Below, piece after piece: positions 124 through 34,297 of a DNA stretch of 34,297 nucleotides. Source of the DNA: a virus. Position 1 is the first letter of the stretch. Each line of letters opens with the position of its first letter. Position numbers and translations under genes: made by a program. Where the stretch lies: the IMG/VR virus record IMGVR_UViG_3300017971_000168, positions 1 through 34,297 of that record; one strand, written 5' to 3'. The notes beneath the pieces are model-generated. The model was not told the origin of the DNA. It worked only from the letters and a program-made list of their open reading frames with translations, and searched no databases.

Positions 124-363
124 AGCTATTTGAATCTCGCCTTTTGTTGCATCAGAAGTGGAATCCCAAATTAAATTTTCTGATGCTGCAGTACCACCAG
201 TTATAGTTTTACCGCCTGTAACACCAGAATTTACAAATGTTCTTGTTTCTTCAGCTGTTCCCTTATAGTTGATCACTCCCGCATTAGCAATATCAAATAA
301 CCATGTTGCATCAATAATGCCACCCGGCAACGGATTATAATCACTAGTTTTTACATTGGCCAT
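1..363 (-). CDS. Repeat-containing tail fibre protein, N-terminal part (continues at 34174)
   Basis: The first 121 codons of a 388-aa protein whose remainder lies at 34174-33371; the two parts join in frame across the contig ends. The ATG at 363 has AGGAG just upstream and follows the 46-aa gene. The N-terminus reads MANVKTSDYNPLPGG. From about residue 105 begins the first of three tandem modules of about 66 residues, each with a YVD-x(7)-W pattern (KYVDDAVATESIW, KTYVDNHSTNGVW, KTYVDAHTTNGMW) followed by NAGDT and DATGG motifs. Such modular repeats are common in phage fibres. It sits among other tail genes, so a role in the fibre or its attachment is inferred. Confidence 0.82.
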   Translation of the reverse strand, partial: MANVKTSDYNPLPGGIIDATWLFDIANAGVINYKGTAEETRTFVNSGVTGGKTITGGTAASENLIWDSTSDATKGEIQIADGSTLHANTTNYETLVTDNNDIPNKKYVDDAVATESIWDRT

Positions 364-372
364 TTCTATCTC

Positions 373-513
373 CTAATAGTCTGAATTTTCTGTTATTTTG
401 TTATCACCATCTTCAGTTATTTTATTATTGCCATCTTCAGTTTCTTTGAACAAAACTTGTATAACATGTTGGTATAAACGATTTACCAACATAAACTTAT
501 GTGGTGTTTTCAT
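373..513 (-). CDS. Small protein with tandem acidic repeats (46 aa)
   Basis: It begins at an ATG that overlaps the stop of the upstream 97-aa gene (TAATG), which suggests translational coupling, with a GGAAGG segment upstream. The C-terminal half carries two near-copies of an eight-residue unit (TEDGNNKI, TEDGDNKI) and a partial third (TENSDY). No family is recognised. Its position between two tail genes suggests a late product, perhaps a small tail component, but function is unknown. It may instead be non-functional DNA kept by coupling. Confidence 0.55.
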   Translation of the reverse strand: MKTPHKFMLVNRLYQHVIQVLFKETEDGNNKITEDGDNKITENSDY

Positions 514-806
514 TATTGAGGCCTTCCTAAATCGGTACCAGTTGAACCCCAATATAAACCGCCTGCTGTTGTTCCGGCACTTAGAATTTGAGTGAACCCT
601 ATAGGCCAACCTTCACCGGCTTCTAAAATCCAATTTCCAGTTTCATCTGTAAATTTATTATACCAGCGTATCGTTCCAGCAGTTGTACATTTGACCCAAG
701 TTGCTAATTCACCAATATCGGTATCTAAAACAACTTGACCTGATTTAGTTATATATAATCCAATCGAATTGTTAATTACATTTGGATCTAAAGTTTTTGC
801 CGCCAT
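513..806 (-). CDS. Small structural protein of unknown function (97 aa)
   Basis: The ATG at 806 is preceded by TTAGGAG at good spacing. The protein starts MAAKTLDPNVINNSIG and contains segments typical of beta-rich virion proteins (SGQVVLDTDIG, GTIRWYNKF, GNWILEAGEGWPIG). It lies between the collar-type fibre gene and the repeat fibre gene in the same direction, so it is probably a tail or fibre accessory. No signal peptide or membrane segment is visible. The specific role is unknown. Confidence 0.7.
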   Translation of the reverse strand: MAAKTLDPNVINNSIGLYITKSGQVVLDTDIGELATWVKCTTAGTIRWYNKFTDETGNWILEAGEGWPIGFTQILSAGTTAGGLYWGSTGTDLGRPQ

Positions 807-815
807 TTTTTTCTC

Positions 816-2738
816 CTAAGTTTTAATTATTAACATTCTATAAATATTTTTAGATCTAGTTTCCAAGCTAGTTCTTCCGGGTGAATCAACTCCAGTTGAT
901 GGACCAGGAAAATCTCTGAAAGTGTTACCACCTTGAAAAATCAAAGGGGAAGTAGTATCAAAAACTGTTACTGTATGTGTATGTTGTTGTAAAGCATCTT
1001 CTTCAACAGTTCCAACATTATCTCCAGTTGTCCCATCACCTCTATCTCCACGTGTGTCTTTGTCAGGATCTATCCCAGCTCTTCCATTTGACCAGTTTCT
1101 AACAAACCATCCACGAGCATCTTGTAAAGCAAAATATAAAGGATCCATAATAGTTTTAAGTTTTGCTGCAACTTCTACATTTGTTTCAGTGCCGTTTAAA
1201 ATCAATGGCACCCCAACTTTTCCACCTATTGCTGGATCTACTCCAGAATTATTTATGACCATATATACATAAAATTGCTCTACAGAAAGCCCATTATCAA
1301 TTCCTTCAAAATCAAAATAAGAACCAGGAGTAATTGATGTTGCTGGTAAGGTTTGAATTGTAAATATTTCAGGTAATGAAGGTGTTCCTTGTTGTGTTAC
1401 GGTAACTGTAAATCCAGAAGTACCGGCTGTTGCATCTGCAACACTTCCATTTTCTTTAGCCGTAAATGTTACGGTATCCGTTACAACAGTCGCATCTCCA
1501 TATTCATAACCATAATCTTTTCCTATAACAGCAGCCAAATTTAAATATAAAGCAGTTAAATGCGTAGTGCCATGTTCTGGCAGCCATCCATCTGGAGCAG
1601 TATCTGTAGGCCACCATACTTCGGTACCAGCTGGTATAACTTGTTCCCACGTAAGATTACCTAATTCATCAGTACATAAATATTTTTTATTTGCCGTTGA
1701 AACTATAGAAATCGGTAATTCAGGAATTCCTAAACCAACTGATTCTGCATTACTATAACCGGTAGGCAAATAATTGTATTCTAGTTCATCTGGTCCTCTT
1801 AATATTTGAACTCGCGCAATATCCATTTGGCTTGTTACTCCAGGAGGAAATCTAAAACCAACATCTAGATAATTTTCTGTACTAAAATCTATACTTTTAC
1901 CGTTTACAGAATCAATTGTAAAAGTTTCAACATATTTGGTCCAAGAGGATGCTATTGTAATTCCAGACGCTGGAGTTTTAGTATTTGACGGAGACCCTCC
2001 GCTTCCAAAGTTTTGTGTGTAAACAACATCGAGAGGAGTTCCTGAAGAAGTTTGAGCATAAAAGACAAGTGTAATAGTTTCTCCAGAAAAACTTCTTACA
2101 TCATTGATTCTTATAATAAAATCATTTTCATTTTCACCTGCACCACCAGTTGTCGTTTCTTGACTAAAATAATTTATAGGATTTCCTGGTACTGTTGTTT
2201 GGCCAATTCCAAAAGCTACAAATTCTAAAGTTCGAGTTGCATTTGTATTGTTCCTTTTATAATACCAATTTGCCAATGCAACTTTAGTATCTCCAGCTGG
2301 TATTTGTGAGGTTTCAAATTTAGGTTTGATAGGTTGAGCAAAATCTGCAATAACTGCATAATTGGTAAAATCAACTTCGTCTACTACCGGCCCTGGTCCT
2401 TCACTAGGTCCAAAATTATCCCAAGTTCTTAAAATATTCCCTGCATCAGGAGGAAGGGTAGGGTTTTGATCTGCTGTTGTAAGAACTAAATAATATAATT
2501 CATCATCTGCAAAATAAGTCACATAAGGATCTGGAATTGCTCCACTAGAATCTAGCTCAATAGGATTAGTATAAAAATCTGAAGGATCTGTGGGGTCTTC
2601 AATTTTTGAAATATTCTTTTTAGTACTATGGTCAGTAGCTTTATATGAATAAAGATAACCTCCTTGCACTAATTCCCCGGTCATAGGATCTGTTAATTCA
2701 GTTATAAGACTTCCTATTAATGTATAATTTACTGCCAT
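816..2738 (-). CDS. Tail fibre with collar-type C-terminal domain (640 aa)
   Basis: The N-terminal 100 residues have the layout of phage tailspike and fibre head-binding domains: GGYLYSYKA, then NPIELDSSGAIPDPYVTYFADDE and YYLVLTTADQNP. The middle contains a beta-rich carbohydrate-module-like stretch. From about residue 375, GTEVWWPTDTAPDGWLPEHG matches the phage tail collar pattern (PF07484-like), followed by GRAGIDPDKDTRGDRG, QQHTHTV and a C-terminal ETRSKNIYRMLIIK tail. This HTH...ETRxxN ending is characteristic of short tail fibres. The start ATG overlaps the stop of the upstream gene (TAATG) and has AAGGAG. Receptor binding is the likely role. It follows the ejection genes, where P22-like phages place adhesin genes. 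Confidence 0.86.
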   Translation of the reverse strand: MAVNYTLIGSLITELTDPMTGELVQGGYLYSYKATDHSTKKNISKIEDPTDPSDFYTNPIELDSSGAIPDPYVTYFADDELYYLVLTTADQNPTLPPDAGNILRTWDNFGPSEGPGPVVDEVDFTNYAVIADFAQPIKPKFETSQIPAGDTKVALANWYYKRNNTNATRTLEFVAFGIGQTTVPGNPINYFSQETTTGGAGENENDFIIRINDVRSFSGETITLVFYAQTSSGTPLDVVYTQNFGSGGSPSNTKTPASGITIASSWTKYVETFTIDSVNGKSIDFSTENYLDVGFRFPPGVTSQMDIARVQILRGPDELEYNYLPTGYSNAESVGLGIPELPISIVSTANKKYLCTDELGNLTWEQVIPAGTEVWWPTDTAPDGWLPEHGTTHLTALYLNLAAVIGKDYGYEYGDATVVTDTVTFTAKENGSVADATAGTSGFTVTVTQQGTPSLPEIFTIQTLPATSITPGSYFDFEGIDNGLSVEQFYVYMVINNSGVDPAIGGKVGVPLILNGTETNVEVAAKLKTIMDPLYFALQDARGWFVRNWSNGRAGIDPDKDTRGDRGDGTTGDNVGTVEEDALQQHTHTVTVFDTTSPLIFQGGNTFRDFPGPSTGVDSPGRTSLETRSKNIYRMLIIKT

Positions 2739-3937
2739 TAAAGTTCTCCTTCATATCTTGGAATAACATCTCTACCTAGTAAATATGCTATAGTTGGTAA
2801 TGCTGCTTTCCAAGCAAATTGTTTTAAAGCCGGCTTCCCACCTAATGGTCCAGGGTAAAGACCAGTAATTTTTCTAATTCTTGTTGCAGGCCGTAATGTT
2901 GCCTCAGGAATTTCATATCCACTAATAGCCCTTCTGATTCCTTTTACACTTCCTTTTTCTCCTAAAAGATCTCTCAATGCTTTAAACTCTCTAAAAGGAA
3001 CAACGTTTTGTCTGTAATGTTCTGCAGCTTGTTCATATTGATTATATTTTCCTTCAGAAATACGACCTAAATGACTACCAACATCATCACTTAATGAATT
3101 TATAGTATCATCAAGCATATCAATTCTTTTGGCATCGGTTCTATCACCACTACCTAGATCTACTCTAGCTTTAGTTTTTATTTTTAATTTATCTAAATCA
3201 CTCCTAAGATGATGTAAATTTTCAATCGAAGGGTCTTCATTATAAGTATTTAAGGCTCTTTTTATTGGCCTTTCTCCTTTGTATTCATCTAAGAGACTTT
3301 GCAAATTCTGATAACTTTCTGGAGACATTTGTACTGCTTCTTTTTCAGTCCCTTTAAAAACATTTCCGTATAATTTTCTGGCTAACCCCTTTTGCTTTGT
3401 AGCTGCAGATTTTATTAACCTTCCTAAAGCTGCATCAGATAAATATGCAGGTGCATGTCTTAATATTCCTAATAAATAATCTCCGGCTCCTCCAGCAGCA
3501 CCCATTAATGCAGCTTCCGTACGAGGGATTACCCCTCCTTCTGCTGTAACTGCGCCAGCACCTCCATAGGCAAGCATTCTTGGAATCAAAGATGCCTCTT
3601 CTGCAAATCTTCCTACTCCGGCGCCTGGTAAGGTAGTAGTTAAAACATCCCCCGTCATTTCTCCGTATTTAGCTTCTGGCAATTCTTGTAATTTAGGTGT
3701 CATGGCAAACATTGATTCTTGTGGAGATTGCAAATGAGTTCCTAAAATTTTATTTAAGGCATATGTCCCCAATTGGTTAATAGCATGTCCAGCTTTCACG
3801 CCACTTTGCAATACTCCTAGGCCGTAGGCAGCGGCTTTTTCCCCTAAAGTTGGAATTGATCTAGTTTTTATACCAGGATATGGACCAGTATCTTGAACTT
3901 CTCTTGTCGTTATGCCAGGATAAGAATTATTTGCCAT
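2738..3937 (-). CDS. DNA-ejection (gp16-like) internal virion protein (399 aa)
   Basis: This is the third of three genes in the positions of P22 genes 7, 20 and 16. The protein begins MANNSYPGITTREVQDTG, with a repeated YPGI-T-R motif (YPGITTR, YPGIKTR). It then has Ala/Gly-rich helical stretches (about residues 35-70 and 100-170) and long charged helices to the C-terminus. It is shorter than P22 gp16 (609 aa), so the assignment rests on gene order and character rather than close similarity. The ATG overlaps the upstream stop (TAATG) with AGGAG in front. Ejection proteins are packaged in the head and enter the cell with the DNA. Confidence 0.66.
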   Translation of the reverse strand: MANNSYPGITTREVQDTGPYPGIKTRSIPTLGEKAAAYGLGVLQSGVKAGHAINQLGTYALNKILGTHLQSPQESMFAMTPKLQELPEAKYGEMTGDVLTTTLPGAGVGRFAEEASLIPRMLAYGGAGAVTAEGGVIPRTEAALMGAAGGAGDYLLGILRHAPAYLSDAALGRLIKSAATKQKGLARKLYGNVFKGTEKEAVQMSPESYQNLQSLLDEYKGERPIKRALNTYNEDPSIENLHHLRSDLDKLKIKTKARVDLGSGDRTDAKRIDMLDDTINSLSDDVGSHLGRISEGKYNQYEQAAEHYRQNVVPFREFKALRDLLGEKGSVKGIRRAISGYEIPEATLRPATRIRKITGLYPGPLGGKPALKQFAWKAALPTIAYLLGRDVIPRYEGEL

Positions 3938-9790: not shown

Positions 9791-9796
9791 TTTTAA

Positions 9797-9824
9797 TTAC
9801 CTCTAATCATTAACCTAGAGGTAA
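9797..9824 (-). promoter_or_regulatory. Hairpin covering the coat gene ribosome binding site
   Basis: TTACCTCTA (9816-9824 on the minus strand) pairs perfectly with TAGAGGTAA (9797-9805) across a 10-base loop. The SD AGAGGT is in the 3' arm, so the folded mRNA would hide the coat SD. It fills almost the whole gap between scaffold and coat. It could act as a translational switch or an RNA processing site. Confidence 0.6.
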
Positions 9825-9839
9825 CTAAATCAAAGTGAT

Positions 9840-16099: not shown

Positions 16100-16176
16100 T
16101 GGTTGCGCGGCTCAGATTTGAACTGAGGATCTCTAGAGTATAGGTCTAGTATGTTGCCAGACTACACCACCGCGCT
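16100..16176 (-). tRNA. Unusual tRNA, candidate tRNA-Ile(UAU)
   Basis: The cloverleaf folds with D-stem GTGT/ACAT, a nine-base D-loop with G18G19 and A21, a perfect anticodon stem CTAGA/TCTAG, a five-base variable loop, a perfect T-stem CTCAG/CTGAG with loop TTCAAAT, and an encoded CCA. The seven-base loop CCTATAC gives anticodon UAU with A37, which would read AUA, a codon common in this genome. Odd points: C instead of the near-universal U at position 33, and an A1-A72 mismatch at the end of the acceptor stem. It may be a specialised or decaying tRNA. It lies between paralog copies 4 and 1. Confidence 0.7.
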
Positions 16177-19218: not shown

Positions 19219-19406
19219 ATCTACACAAAAACCGGCTTTTATCCAAACGCTTATGGCTTAAGGATAGAATACAAACCTGTCGAGAGAGCAATCAACTCTC
19301 TAAGATGAGGTTTTATGAGAAACAACTGATCAAATATGATCAAAATGTATATGCATTAGAAAGAAAGGAGAGGGAAAATGTTAATCTTAACTCGCAGAAT
19401 AGGTGA
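19200..19406 (+). CDS. Small basic helical protein upstream of csrA (68 aa)
   Basis: The ATG at 19200 has GGAG six bases upstream; an in-frame ATG at 19188 contains that SD. The protein is helical and rich in Lys and Arg ([29 protein letters not shown]). It overlaps csrA by 29 bases, so the two are probably translated together. Function is unknown. Confidence 0.65.
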
Positions 19407-19572
19407 GAAAATAATTATCAATGATAATGTTACTGTAGAAATCTTAATGGTAAAAGGAGCTCAAGTAAGATTAGGGGTAAATGCCCCCAAATCTGTCACA
19501 GTTCACAGAGAGGAAATATATAAAAAAATACAGAAAGAAGGAGATAGGAAATTGGAAGTTGTACATGGCTGA
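19378..19572 (+). CDS. csrA: CsrA-family RNA-binding translational regulator (64 aa)
   Basis: A full-length CsrA/Rsm[31 protein letters not shown] and VHREEIY are hallmark segments, with the RNA-binding residues Leu4, Arg6 and Arg44 all kept. CsrA dimers bind GGA in hairpin loops, usually over an SD, and repress or stabilise mRNAs. The ATG has AAGGAGAGGG upstream, itself GGA-rich, so autoregulation is possible. The C-terminal extension ([12 protein letters not shown]) is of ordinary length. In the phage it may retune host carbon or virulence control, or phage mRNAs with buried SDs. Confidence 0.96.
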
Positions 19573-20157: not shown

Positions 20158-20346
20158 ATGTTAAAATGTTTTTGCTGCAAAAAAAAACCAAAATCTATTA
20201 TAGAACGACTTAATAAACGCCCGAAATCCAGATTTTTTGGATGCAAAATACCAAAATCAGAAATGGAAACCCAGCAAACAATTTTGCAAGAAGCCTTGGG
20301 AGCAATAAGTTTTCAAGAACATCAACCACAGGAGAAACCACAATGA
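20158..20346 (+). CDS. Small Cys-rich protein (62 aa)
   Basis: AGGAGG lies before the ATG. The N-terminus MLKCFCCKKKPKS has a CFCC cluster followed by a basic region; a further Cys is at residue 29. The C-terminal half is acidic and Gln-rich. The stop overlaps the ATG of the ATPase gene (ATGA), so it is coupled to the recombination module. Metal binding or lipid modification is possible. Confidence 0.65.
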   Translation: MLKCFCCKKKPKSIIERLNKRPKSRFFGCKIPKSEMETQQTILQEALGAISFQEHQPQEKPQ

Positions 20347-21008
20347 GTACAATTATGATAATAGGTGAAAGTGGATCAGGAAAATCTACTTCTATAAGAA
20401 CAATGGATCCAAAGAAAACATTTTTAATACAAGTAATAAATAAACCGCTCCCTTTTCGAGGTGTAAAAAAATCTTTTATACCTGTAAACAAAGAGGGAAA
20501 AGGAAATAAGCTTGTCACTGATGATTATGTAAAAATAAGCCAATCTATAGGGTGGTTAGGAGAAAACCGCAAAGATATCAAGACAGTCATTATCGATGAC
20601 TTTCAATACATCATGAGTCTTGAATTTATGAGAAGAGCAGAAGAAAAAGGATGGGATAAATTTGCAGAAATAGCAGCTCATATATTTAAAGTTATCGATA
20701 CTTCTATTATGGCGCGACCTGATTTAAACGTTGTCTTATTAGCTCATTCAACTACTGACGATATGGGTAAAACGAAGCTTAAAACAATAGGAAAGATGAT
20801 TGACGAAAAAATCACTTTAGAAGGAATGTGTACAGTAGTATTACATTCTAAGATTGTTGACGAAAAATATGTATTCCAAACACAAGGAGATGCAACAACA
20901 ATTGCTAAATCTCCTATAGAAATGTTTGAGGATCGTTATATACCTAATGATCTTAAGTTCGTTATTGATACTATTGAAAAGTATTATGATGAAGATATTA
21001 AAATGTAA
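20343..21008 (+). CDS. RecA-like P-loop ATPase, probable Sak4-type annealing protein (221 aa)
   Basis: Walker A GESGSGKST at residues 8-16, Walker B TVIIDDFQYI at 81-90, and a following strand LNVVLLAHST (128-137) form a compact RecA core. This AAA_24/Sak4 type acts in phage single-strand annealing and is usually paired with a phage SSB, as here. The start at 20343 is chosen by the ATGA overlap and AGGAG; upstream in-frame starts run back through the 62-aa gene. An alternative is a non-recombinase ATPase of the same fold. It probably helps make concatemers for headful packaging. Confidence 0.8.
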   Translation: MSTIMIIGESGSGKSTSIRTMDPKKTFLIQVINKPLPFRGVKKSFIPVNKEGKGNKLVTDDYVKISQSIGWLGENRKDIKTVIIDDFQYIMSLEFMRRAEEKGWDKFAEIAAHIFKVIDTSIMARPDLNVVLLAHSTTDDMGKTKLKTIGKMIDEKITLEGMCTVVLHSKIVDEKYVFQTQGDATTIAKSPIEMFEDRYIPNDLKFVIDTIEKYYDEDIKM

Positions 21009-21565: not shown

Positions 21566-22387
21566 ATGCTAGCTAATAATATTACTGTAAGCCTTCCAAA
21601 CTTAGGTTGCAATAAAGATTGTCCATATTGTATATCTAAGCTTACCCCCCAAAGCGTAAACAATATTGAATTATTTGGCAAAAATATATTTTTATTAGAA
21701 AATTTAGTAAAAAGATCAAATGCAGCTAGTCTGTTAATTACTGGAAAAGGCGAACCTTTATTGAATCCATATGGATTAAGATTAATATGCCAAGCATTTA
21801 GCAACCAAATTATATTAGAATTGCAAACAAATGGATTGTTAATAGAAAAGGGACAATCAGAAAGCTCTATAATAAAAGAATGCTTGGAGAAGGCAATCAA
21901 TGTAATCGCTTTTTCAATTGATAATATTAAAGACTGGGAATATTTGATACCAACAATGTCTAAATATGCTCAAATGGGGAAAGTTATTAGAATAACTTTG
22001 ATAGTATCTAAATTATTGCCTGAAAATTTTAATTTCACATATGCTATAAAACTGGCACGAGAATCTCAGGCGAATCAAATAACTTTTAGAAAAACTGATT
22101 ACCCTAAGCATTCAATTGGAAATAATGTTGTTACAGAATGGATAAAAGACAACGCAAACGAAGTTTTGTATAATAAGTTAAAAGACGAGTTTTTAGCAAC
22201 TAATTCACCAATCGTTAGAAAATTATGTTGGGGACCATCTATCTATGATTATAATGGGATTGGATTGACGTTTTTCGATAAATGTATTCAAGAAACAAAT
22301 ACAAATGAAAACATAAGAAGTTTAATATACCAGTCAGATGGGCATTTATATACAAGCTGGAACAAAGGAGGATCAATTTTATTTTAA
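21566..22387 (+). CDS. Radical SAM enzyme of unknown substrate (273 aa)
   Basis: A cluster-binding CX3CX2C motif is at residues 15-22 (CNKDCPYC), the GEP motif at 60-64 (GKGEP, in ITGKGEPLLNP), and a later strand ELQTNG (85-90). These define a radical SAM protein that binds [4Fe-4S] and S-adenosylmethionine. The ELQTNG part recalls QueE and NrdG-type enzymes, but no other queuosine or ribonucleotide reductase gene is present. Two C-terminal Cys (RKLCWGPS and FDKCIQ) may bind a second cluster or metal. AGGAGG lies before the ATG. It follows the SSB gene by eight bases, so a role in DNA or RNA modification is plausible but unproven. Confidence 0.88.
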   Translation: MLANNITVSLPNLGCNKDCPYCISKLTPQSVNNIELFGKNIFLLENLVKRSNAASLLITGKGEPLLNPYGLRLICQAFSNQIILELQTNGLLIEKGQSESSIIKECLEKAINVIAFSIDNIKDWEYLIPTMSKYAQMGKVIRITLIVSKLLPENFNFTYAIKLARESQANQITFRKTDYPKHSIGNNVVTEWIKDNANEVLYNKLKDEFLATNSPIVRKLCWGPSIYDYNGIGLTFFDKCIQETNTNENIRSLIYQSDGHLYTSWNKGGSILF

Positions 22388-24931: not shown

Positions 24932-25132
24932 TTGAGCGATTTAACAATATTAACTATAAAATTACCAAATGAAATAAAGCAAAAAGTTTCTTGCAAATTA
25001 TGTGGAGAGATAATTAAAGATGAAAATGGATTAATTATTTTGAATGATAAAAACGAAATTATTAATGGAATGTGTTTTCAATGCGAGCCTGATTTCCATA
25101 CACCATTATCTAAGAATGAACTTTTTCGATAA
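24932..25132 (+). CDS. Small CxxC/CxxC zinc-binding protein (66 aa), TTG start
   Basis: A TTG start is preferred because AAGGAGATCC precedes it at the right spacing and no ATG fits. VSCKLCGE and GMCFQCEPDFH give two C-x2-C pairs about 30 residues apart, typical of a small treble-clef or ribbon. It is the last rightward gene; its end overlaps the last leftward gene by 23 bp. Confidence 0.7.
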   Translation: MSDLTILTIKLPNEIKQKVSCKLCGEIIKDENGLIILNDKNEIINGMCFQCEPDFHTPLSKNELFR

Positions 25133-25394
25133 TAATAATCCATGTAAGCAAAAAACCACCAATTTTCCACCAATTTTCTTTAATAAAATTGCCAAAACCT
25201 GATTTATCCATTAAAAATTGGATTTCTTTTATTTTATTGTGAATTTCTTTTATTGCTAAATTGTTTTTTGCCAATTGAACATCATGATTATGCCAAATTA
25301 AATTCATATTATCTAAAGAATCAGAAATTGAAGTAATTTGTTCTTTTATATATTTATTCCCTATTTTTAGTTCGGATATTAATTTTTCACTCAT
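25110..25394 (-). CDS. Coiled-coil protein with C-terminal membrane anchor, XhlA-like (94 aa)
   Basis: MSEKLISELKIGNKYIKE starts a long coiled coil to about residue 65, then FIKENWWKIGGFLLTWIIII forms one membrane helix at the C-terminus. This coil plus tail-anchor design matches XhlA-type lysis accessory proteins and fits the place after the holin. The start at 25394 has GGAGGTC; a second in-frame ATG at 25433 with its own AAAGGA would add 13 residues. It would tune holin timing or aid lysis. Confidence 0.68.
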   Translation of the reverse strand: MSEKLISELKIGNKYIKEQITSISDSLDNMNLIWHNHDVQLAKNNLAIKEIHNKIKEIQFLMDKSGFGNFIKENWWKIGGFLLTWIIIIEKVHS

Positions 25395-25461: not shown

Positions 25462-25851
25462 TCAAATCTTAAACCACCTGGATGAAAACCAAGATGTGCA
25501 GCACATATCCATCATAGCCTTATAACCTTCATCAAAATGCCATCCCATCGCTATTCCAATAATACGTGTAATCATGGCTATATATACGAAATTAGGCCTT
25601 ATAGAAGCTCTTAGATCTATTATCCATTTACTGGGTTCTCCTATTACATCTCGATTGAAATAAGAAGTTTTGGCTTTTAAAAGTTCAGCTAAAGAGGTGA
25701 TATACTCTCCCATTTTTTCTGGCTTCGTGGTTGCCAGCGTTGAAAGAGTAGCTTCTGGTGTATCGGCTTTCGGTTTTAAAAATTTTTTTCTTATAAAATC
25801 GAATGCCGGAGGCACCACTAATCCAATTACAGACGCAATAGCATCTATCAT
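25462..25851 (-). CDS. Holin candidate (129 aa)
   Basis: The start at 25851 follows AAAGGAGGTG; a longer frame from 25902 would run through tRNA-Glu and is rejected. MIDAIASVIGLVVPPAFDF begins with an amphipathic helix; a basic soluble part follows, then ASIRPNFVYIAMITRIIGIA gives a membrane segment. The layout recalls 3-TM GTA-type holins, with R-P before the last spans. The gene lies between endolysin and the XhlA-like gene. Its first 52 bp are part of an 86-bp direct repeat whose second copy lies upstream of the tRNA pair. Confidence 0.66.
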   Translation of the reverse strand: MIDAIASVIGLVVPPAFDFIRKKFLKPKADTPEATLSTLATTKPEKMGEYITSLAELLKAKTSYFNRDVIGEPSKWIIDLRASIRPNFVYIAMITRIIGIAMGWHFDEGYKAMMDMCCTSWFSSRWFKI

Positions 25852-25885
25852 GTAGCACCTCCTTTTATCTGAAACATATTGAAGC
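25800..25885. repeat. 86-bp direct repeat, copy A (holin start)
   Basis: Identical to 26057-26142. It holds the first 52 bp of the holin gene plus its SD and 34 bp upstream. With copy B it brackets the two tRNA genes. Confidence 0.97.
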
Positions 25886-25890
25886 AAATA

Positions 25891-25966
25891 TGGTGTCTCC
25901 AACGGGATTCGAACCCGTGTTGCCGCCGTGAAAGGGCGGTGTCGTAGGCCTCTAGACGATGGAGAC
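25891..25966 (-). tRNA. tRNA-Glu(UUC)
   Basis: All stems pair fully: acceptor GTCTCCA/TGGAGAC, anticodon stem CCGCC/GGCGG with loop CTTTCAC (anticodon TTC), and T-stem ACGGG/CCCGT. The CCA is encoded. The body is very close to gammaproteobacterial tRNA-Glu. It lies six bases after tRNA-Ala in the same direction. Confidence 0.97.
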
Positions 25967-25972
25967 GTATCT

Positions 25973-26048
25973 TGGTGGAGCTACGCGGGATCGAACCGCC
26001 GACCCCTTGCATGCCATGCAAGTGCTCTCCCAGCTGAGCTATAGCCCC
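25973..26048 (-). tRNA. tRNA-Ala(GGC)
   Basis: Acceptor GGGGCTA/TAGCTCC has the G3-U70 pair that marks alanine tRNAs; the anticodon stem CTTGC/GCAAG holds loop ATGGCAT (anticodon GGC); CCA is encoded. It closely resembles gammaproteobacterial tRNA-Ala(GGC). One T-stem pair (49-65) is G-G. The Ala-Glu order is also found in host tRNA operons. Confidence 0.96.
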
Positions 26049-26056
26049 AGACTGAC

Positions 26057-26142
26057 CGAATGCCGGAGGCACCACTAATCCAATTACAGACGCAATAGCA
26101 TCTATCATGTAGCACCTCCTTTTATCTGAAACATATTGAAGC
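26057..26142. repeat. 86-bp direct repeat, copy B (truncated holin start)
   Basis: Identical to 25800-25885. It carries a full SD and the first 17 codons of the holin gene; reading then passes out of the repeat into the tRNA genes, stop-free, and ends at the real holin start in an ATGA overlap. Confidence 0.97.
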
Positions 26143-26183: not shown

Positions 26184-26642
26184 TTATACAATAATTATAG
26201 GGAAATTTTTAACATATTCCTCAACAGTACCTTTGCCTTTTGAGGTATTCCAATATTTTTTCCAATATCTACCAAGAGCAGTTACTTTAGGAAAAGGTAA
26301 TGGTTCAGAAAATCTAGCATAATAAAATCTAGCTAGTTGAATAGCGAGGTTAATATCATATTTTAAAAATTCTGGATTTTCAGGAAAATCTGATTTTTTA
26401 AATCCAGTTTTTTTAGTAAAAGCCGGAACTACATTTTGCAAGACATCAAAATAAGTTTTTGGCTCCATTTGAAATATCCCAATTGCTGGACCATTATCCA
26501 TTTGTTCAAGCCATCTACCACAATGTGATTCTTGAGCTGCCGTTCCTAATAATAAATATTCAGCAGCCAAACTCCACATACCTAAACGCTTGATTTCATA
26601 ACGTATTCTATATTGCAAATCTTTAGGGTTTAATGAGCGCAT
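26184..26642 (-). CDS. Endolysin, lysozyme/transglycosylase-like (152 aa)
   Basis: LLLGTAAQESHCGRWLEQ with the catalytic Glu at residue 38, followed by GPAIGIFQMEPKTYFD, is a well-known phage lysozyme-like family (lytic transglycosylase fold). No signal peptide is seen, so it needs the holin. The SD is weak and the start lies three bases from the stop of the last fibre gene. It cleaves peptidoglycan to release phage. Confidence 0.86.
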   Translation of the reverse strand: MRSLNPKDLQYRIRYEIKRLGMWSLAAEYLLLGTAAQESHCGRWLEQMDNGPAIGIFQMEPKTYFDVLQNVVPAFTKKTGFKKSDFPENPEFLKYDINLAIQLARFYYARFSEPLPFPKVTALGRYWKKYWNTSKGKGTVEEYVKNFPIIIV

Positions 26643-33370: not shown

Positions 33371-34297
33371 TTAACTATTATCTGATCTTGATTGCTCTAC
33401 CCAAATGCTATTAACTGTGGAATAAACAAAAACAATCATATCATTCAATCCTAATGTAAAAGGTTGGCCACCCGCTGTTGCAAGTCCATTCCCATTTACA
33501 AAAGTTACGGTTTTCGTATTATCAGTTCCTATAAAAATAACTTTTTTTGATGCGCTATCAGAAGGAACTGGAATTTGAGGATTAGCTGTTATAGTAGTTT
33601 CACCAGCTGTTGAAGATCGGATATATATTACATCAAAATCAACATTTGGAATTCCTGTTGCAGCCACTACATCTACAATTGAAGATTCAGATAAATATAT
33701 TCCTTTGGCGGTTCCTAAATCTAAGGTATCACCTGCTGTAGAAACACTTATAAGAGTTCCAGTCTCAGTCCACATTCCATTTGTTGTATGAGCATCAACA
33801 TATGTCTTTACAGCTTGCTCAGTGGGGAGAGCCGTATCAGAATTATCTACTAAAGTTCCATCGGTAGAAAATTCAACTATATTTTGACCACCTGCACCAA
33901 ATTGAATTCCACCTGTTGCATCAAATTGAACTGTATCGCCAGCATTTGTTAGCGTTACATCTGTTCCTGTTCTTGTCCATACACCGTTTGTGCTATGATT
34001 ATCTACATAGGTTTTGATAGCTAATTGTGTGACAACAGCTGTATCAACAGCCCCTGTAAAAGTCCCATCAATAGAAATAGCTGTTACATTTTGACCACCA
34101 CCTGAAAATTGAAGTCCACCAGTTGCGTCAAGCTCTGTAGTATCGCCAGCATTTTGTAATGTAACTGTAGTTCTAGTTCTATCCCAAATGCTTTCTGTAG
34201 CGACTGCATCGTCAACATATTTTTTATTTGGAATATCATTATTATCAGTAACTAAAGTTTCATAATTAGTCGTATTAGCATGCAGAGTTGATCCGTC
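33371..34297 (-). CDS. Repeat-containing tail fibre protein, C-terminal part
   Basis: The continuation of the gene that starts at 363. Unique sequence is 33371-34174 (267 codons plus stop); 34175-34297 repeats the first 123 bases of the window in the same frame. It contains modules two and three (VDNHSTNGVW, VDAHTTNGMW) with NAGDTVQFDATGG, then a C-terminal domain (TTITANPQIPVPS to VEQSRSDN) shared with the 148-aa virion protein. Full length is 388 aa. It ends 14 bp before the 1195-aa fibre gene. Confidence 0.85.
   Translation of the reverse strand, partial: DGSTLHANTTNYETLVTDNNDIPNKKYVDDAVATESIWDRTRTTVTLQNAGDTTELDATGGLQFSGGGQNVTAISIDGTFTGAVDTAVVTQLAIKTYVDNHSTNGVWTRTGTDVTLTNAGDTVQFDATGGIQFGAGGQNIVEFSTDGTLVDNSDTALPTEQAVKTYVDAHTTNGMWTETGTLISVSTAGDTLDLGTAKGIYLSESSIVDVVAATGIPNVDFDVIYIRSSTAGETTITANPQIPVPSDSASKKVIFIGTDNTKTVTFVNGNGLATAGGQPFTLGLNDMIVFVYSTVNSIWVEQSRSDNS
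34175..34297. repeat. Right copy of 123-bp terminal direct repeat
   Basis: Exact copy of 1-123. It should be counted once; the unique genome is 34,174 bp. Confidence 0.93.

Follow-up and report, generated by a model that had tools for sequence, protein, structure and literature searches.

A bacterial-type tRNA pair lies between two identical copies of a putative holin gene start in a phage genome

Results

The lysis operon of the phage contains two tRNA genes between long direct repeats

The window, which is the whole 34,297-bp virus sequence of the record (G+C content 34%), carries a lysis operon on the minus strand. Read along that strand, it comprises an endolysin-like gene (26184..26642; phrog_3108, with weak similarity to the phage tail lysozyme PF18013), 41 nt, copy B of an 86-bp repeat (26057..26142), 8 nt, a tRNA-Ala(GGC) gene, 6 nt, a tRNA-Glu(UUC) gene, 5 nt, copy A of the repeat (25800..25885), a holin-like gene encoding 129 aa (25462..25851) and, last, a small membrane-type ORF without a family match (25110..25394). 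The two repeats are direct, 86 nt long, 100% identical and 257 nt apart from start to start. Each holds a 34-nt leader with a Shine-Dalgarno sequence (SD, AGGAGG), the ATG and 17 codons of the putative holin, and one extra base. Only copy A reads on into the whole 129-aa ORF, while copy B leads into a 171-bp tRNA cassette (25886..26056, minus strand) that has no ORF of its own. An earlier sequence-only reading had described this arrangement, and its repeats, intact tRNAs and single complete holin gene proved exact to the base. It had missed that the copy-B start opens an 86-aa frame (25848..26108, minus strand) which crosses both tRNAs and whose TGA overlaps the copy-A ATG as ATGA; this frame is probably a by-product.

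The putative holin has no significant Pfam or PHROG match, and PF11351 was not found in it. We name it from its synteny with an endolysin gene, both in the window and in L002, a distant relative in which a 46% identical holin-like protein is encoded nine bases behind the endolysin gene, with no tRNA. The tRNAs are oriented with the late and lysis genes, as had been noted; the further claim that they are transcribed with the lysis genes is plausible from this co-orientation. Promoter and terminator scans gave results no better than those on shuffled sequences.

The repeats are not due to chance and are probably not an assembly error

Setting aside the overlap of the contig ends, the 86-bp pair is the sole exact repeat of at least 20 bp in the window. 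By chance, the longest repeat should be ~15 bp, and ~4e-40 pairs of 86 bp would be expected, so a chance origin is excluded.

Direct repeats are common sites of misassembly, and the sequence is a metagenome contig. The second repeat could thus be an artefact, or the contig could fuse two variants of a population, but we consider this quite improbable given how the contig closes. Its two ends share 123 bp (1-123 and 34175-34297), and joining them restores an unbroken tail-fibre frame, within which the terminal repeat lies; the record very probably represents an entire phage genome that closes into a circle. The 123-bp terminal repeat is probably an assembler overlap (k = 123) rather than the physical ends of the genome. 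One JGI MEGAHIT protocol runs k values from 23 to 123 (PMC6243002). Since the end overlap equals the last k of that protocol, single 123-mers would cover each 86-bp repeat together with its flanks. Supposing that this protocol made the contig, the repeats were probably spanned in the assembly, and it is unlikely, if the last k was indeed 123, that a repeat was collapsed or falsely created. Both junctions between tRNA and repeat must occur in reads regardless. The fact that the contig is unbroken is also a weak hint that any tRNA-minus form was not abundant.

Both tRNAs are probably functional

ARAGORN finds tRNA-Glu(UUC) at 25891-25966 and tRNA-Ala(GGC) at 25973-26048, both on the minus strand and with an encoded CCA, and Infernal agrees with scores of 58.1 and 52.2 bits against a threshold of 29. 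Both have a cloverleaf, a correct anticodon loop and a CCA end, with one mismatched stem pair each (U13.C22 in the D stem of tRNA-Glu, G49.G65 in the T stem of tRNA-Ala). The alanine identity pair G3.U70 is intact in tRNA-Ala. Judged by these features, both tRNAs are probably functional.

Codon compensation is ruled out as the main reason for carrying tRNA-Ala(GGC), as GCC makes up only 11-12% of Ala codons in the phage. Elsewhere in the genome, a separate tRNA-Ile(UAU) (16100-16176, minus strand) without flanking repeats of at least 16 bp would read AUA directly. Among Ile codons, AUA has a share of 35% in the late genes and 55% in the early ones, a usage that this tRNA fits better than tRNA-Ala(GGC) fits Ala codon use.

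The pair resembles a chromosomal arrangement with no near-identical source found

The sequence-only reading had called the tRNAs host-like, which holds for their type and gene order. The order tRNA-Ala(GGC)-tRNA-Glu(UUC) also occurs on proteobacterial chromosomes or large replicons, with a spacer of 24 nt in Legionella adelaidensis and 11 nt in Piscirickettsia, compared with 6 nt in the phage. Such pairs are also present at several prophage-edge contigs. One of them, L136, carries an ORF that we take to be glutamyl-tRNA-synthetase-like (gltX-like) from reading its translation, then tRNA-Ala, 5 nt, tRNA-Glu and a terminator-like hairpin. The phage pair thus appears chromosomal in type, order and spacing (spacers of at least 5 nt). 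The resemblance does not extend to a near-identical source. Neither the exact tRNA-Ala with the 5' end of tRNA-Glu, nor the whole tRNA-Glu with three free positions, had a match in 84,980 genomes, a set outside which the host may lie. Both L136 tRNAs match those of the phage at 65/76 positions, and the nearest copies on viral contigs match at 71/76 (tRNA-Ala) and 70/76 (tRNA-Glu).

The lack of a matching source, together with the mismatched stem pairs, means that the tRNAs may have lived in phages before this insertion. The pair could then have been phage-borne already, entering through a homologous exchange with a related phage, or with a small circle, that carried the repeat and the tRNAs. 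A single crossover with such a circle would yield exactly the structure seen here, the tRNAs differ from all the chromosomal copies seen and show drift in their stem pairs, and some phage clusters place tRNA-Glu beside tRNA-Ala(UGC). We nonetheless regard this origin as rather unlikely: no such phage or circle was found in viral_contigs or in the phage collection, and it merely shifts the origin of the joint between repeat and tRNA one step back.

Distant relatives of the holin lack the cassette

The phage collection contains no near-identical phage, the exact 86-bp repeat occurs nowhere else in viral_contigs, and no close relative of the lysis region was found in the collections, searches with the lysis genes returning distant relatives only. 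A 73% DNA relative, L077, was found by major capsid protein and terminase searches and covers the structural half of the genome only. None of the 53 holin-relative loci examined has a tRNA, and the adjacent endolysin and holin-like genes of L002 provide an example, if a distant one, of the tRNA-free junction that had been proposed.

We further compared the locus with other tRNA loci on viral contigs fetched by tRNA patterns, a sample biased towards tRNA-Glu carriers. Among 121 tRNA blocks, with clusters merged, no other is flanked on its two sides, within 400 bp, by an exact repeat of at least 16 bp. With looser criteria, applied to 161 blocks, a few diverged or tRNA-containing repeats came up. 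L080 and L158 were rejected as similar cases, having several tRNA-Glu copies in duplicated regions instead, as was L176, whose AT-rich repeats are dispersed and diverged. In L176, the tRNAs of a viral cluster (189-3404) are surrounded by an AT-rich 70-bp repeat in four diverged, dispersed copies.

The insert does not resemble a standard mobile element

Target duplication is a hallmark of transposition, and the insert is bracketed by the repeats, as would be expected of a site-specific or transposing tRNA element mobilized by an enzyme acting in trans. The repeat itself seems unlike what an integrase or a transposase normally leaves behind: it consists of 86 bp of coding sequence and leader, not an attachment-site core, and is far longer than the usual transposon target duplications (about 2-15 bp). 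The insert has neither terminal repeats nor a mobility gene, and the cassette is known from this locus only. As the sequence-only reading had stated for integrases, we found no integrase, and also no transposase or homing endonuclease, among the proteins scanned, which took in neighbours of the tRNAs but not every small ORF. We therefore consider such an element highly improbable. The long duplication, the absence of terminal repeats and of a separate ORF from the insert, and the lack of mobility genes among the scanned proteins favor break repair or template switching over transposition or site-specific integration.

The phage does encode proteins that could act on the repeats, namely a Sak4-like single-stranded DNA annealing protein (20241..21008, plus strand), a candidate for recombination between them, a Holliday-junction-resolvase-like protein and a protein similar to part of the RecE-like exonuclease family. 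With these, it is plausible that the repeats allow the cassette to be deleted or to grow in tandem. The locus might even work as a reversible accordion, in which recombination aided by the Sak4-like protein would delete the pair or multiply it as (repeat-tRNA)n with the holin always intact; we find this reading attractive but give it a low probability. If it were true, tRNA dosage would be tunable against tRNA-cutting defenses without a dedicated enzyme. Adjoining the recombination genes is a weak radical-SAM-like protein (21566-22387, plus strand; PF04055 below cut-off; phrog_1802).

Translational control of the holin does not readily explain the duplication

Another possibility is that selection keeps the duplication as a control device, in which the copy-B leader and the 86-aa frame would set the translation or timing of the holin. 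An 11-bp hairpin that hides the SD is predicted in each repeat, and the copy-B frame ends in ATGA at the holin start. Yet the hairpin is not conserved in relatives (SD pairing is 0.30 in L002), which rules it out as a conserved control element, and several other genes of the phage have SDs paired as strongly. An open frame through the GC-rich tRNAs, in one of three frame offsets, is not improbable, and tRNA processing would cut it; if RNase P cuts at tRNA-Ala, what remains of copy B would be a short transcript lacking a stop codon. The odds of a control device are therefore poor in our view, and the SD hairpin and the ATGA overlap may both be by-products.

In both repeats, the holin SD sits in an A-N-GGA motif, and the early region holds a gene for a CsrA-like regulator (19378-19572, plus strand; PF02599, E 1.6e-23; phrog_9500). 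From this motif, CsrA control of lysis is conceivable. A strong hairpin is also predicted at 9795-9825 (minus strand), directly upstream of the major capsid gene and over its SD region, with the lowest folding energy of 27 gene starts.

Discussion

We favor, with modest confidence, a single recent illegitimate insertion of a bacterial-type tRNA pair that duplicated its target and thereby rebuilt the holin. Short bacterial DNA with tRNA-Ala(GGC)-tRNA-Glu(UUC) would have entered once, recently, at codon 17 of the putative holin, through illegitimate recombination of a template-switch or break-repair type that also copied the 86 bp lying upstream of this site. The duplicate would have restored a complete holin start downstream of the tRNAs, preserving lysis and making the insertion survivable. 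From the layout of the operon, we infer late transcription of the tRNAs along with the lysis genes, followed by their release through host tRNA-processing enzymes, a release that would give the holin message a clean leader.

Several observations support insertion. The cassette has a G+C content of 58% against 34% for the genome, the repeats are unique and identical, and the endolysin-holin junction of L002 is uninterrupted. Joining the flanks over one repeat leaves the endolysin-like gene, 41 nt, the repeat and an intact holin, in agreement with the earlier proposal of a target-duplicating insertion that is removable in principle. An insertion without duplication would break the holin, so an event of this kind is probably the kind that selection leaves visible. 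As no close relative offers an empty lysis site, the case for insertion draws on the 46% identical relative and on this logic. Repeat identity had also been taken to suggest a recent or actively maintained insertion; the identity is real, but over 86 bp it only bounds divergence at ~3.4%. Against the favored reading stand the differences between these tRNAs and all sources found, and the low use of GCC, which gives no need for tRNA-Ala(GGC).

Phage-borne tRNAs are common, as in T4, T5 and the mycobacteriophage clusters. The tRNAs described here resemble them in being complete, separated by short spacers and oriented with their neighbors. What sets them apart is their place within a gene start that has been duplicated, with a long perfect direct repeat on either side; none of the other viral tRNA blocks sampled has such repeats. 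The pair also shares its tRNAs, order and orientation with the proteobacterial Ala(GGC)-Glu(UUC) pair, for instance beside gltX, with a spacer of 6 nt against the 5 nt of L136, while differing from the latter in tRNA sequence and in the absence of gltX and of a terminator.

Two described phage loci are comparable. At the tRNA-Tyr locus of T6, tandem amplification is driven by the endonuclease SegB (PMC13096335). Both loci have a tRNA-bearing unit with the potential to become a tandem array by recombination, and here a (repeat-tRNA)n-repeat array would keep the holin intact; however, no SegB or other homing endonuclease was found in our phage, the unit is in single copy, and T6 used microhomology rather than 86-bp repeats. 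In Serratia T4-like phages, tRNA regions were deleted between short direct repeats (PMC5449768). That case likewise has tRNA-bearing DNA between direct repeats, from which it was lost, but the Serratia repeats are 5-10 bp long and mostly frequent in the genome, whereas the repeat described here is 86 bp, unique and tied to an insertion. Word searches of the open-access literature returned no description of tRNAs held between copies of a duplicated gene start.

Altogether, the evidence points to a recent capture of tRNAs more than to a novel mobile-element class. It is an unusually clear and real case of tRNA gain by a phage, of interest for its mechanism and ordinary in kind. The uptake of host tRNA genes by phages is mostly inferred from old, eroded clusters, while in this phage the two joints can still be seen, as can the duplicated target. 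The locus predicts that tRNA-minus and multi-copy forms occur in the population, and it suggests how an essential and compact operon can tolerate an insertion, with the duplication of the target rebuilding the interrupted gene.
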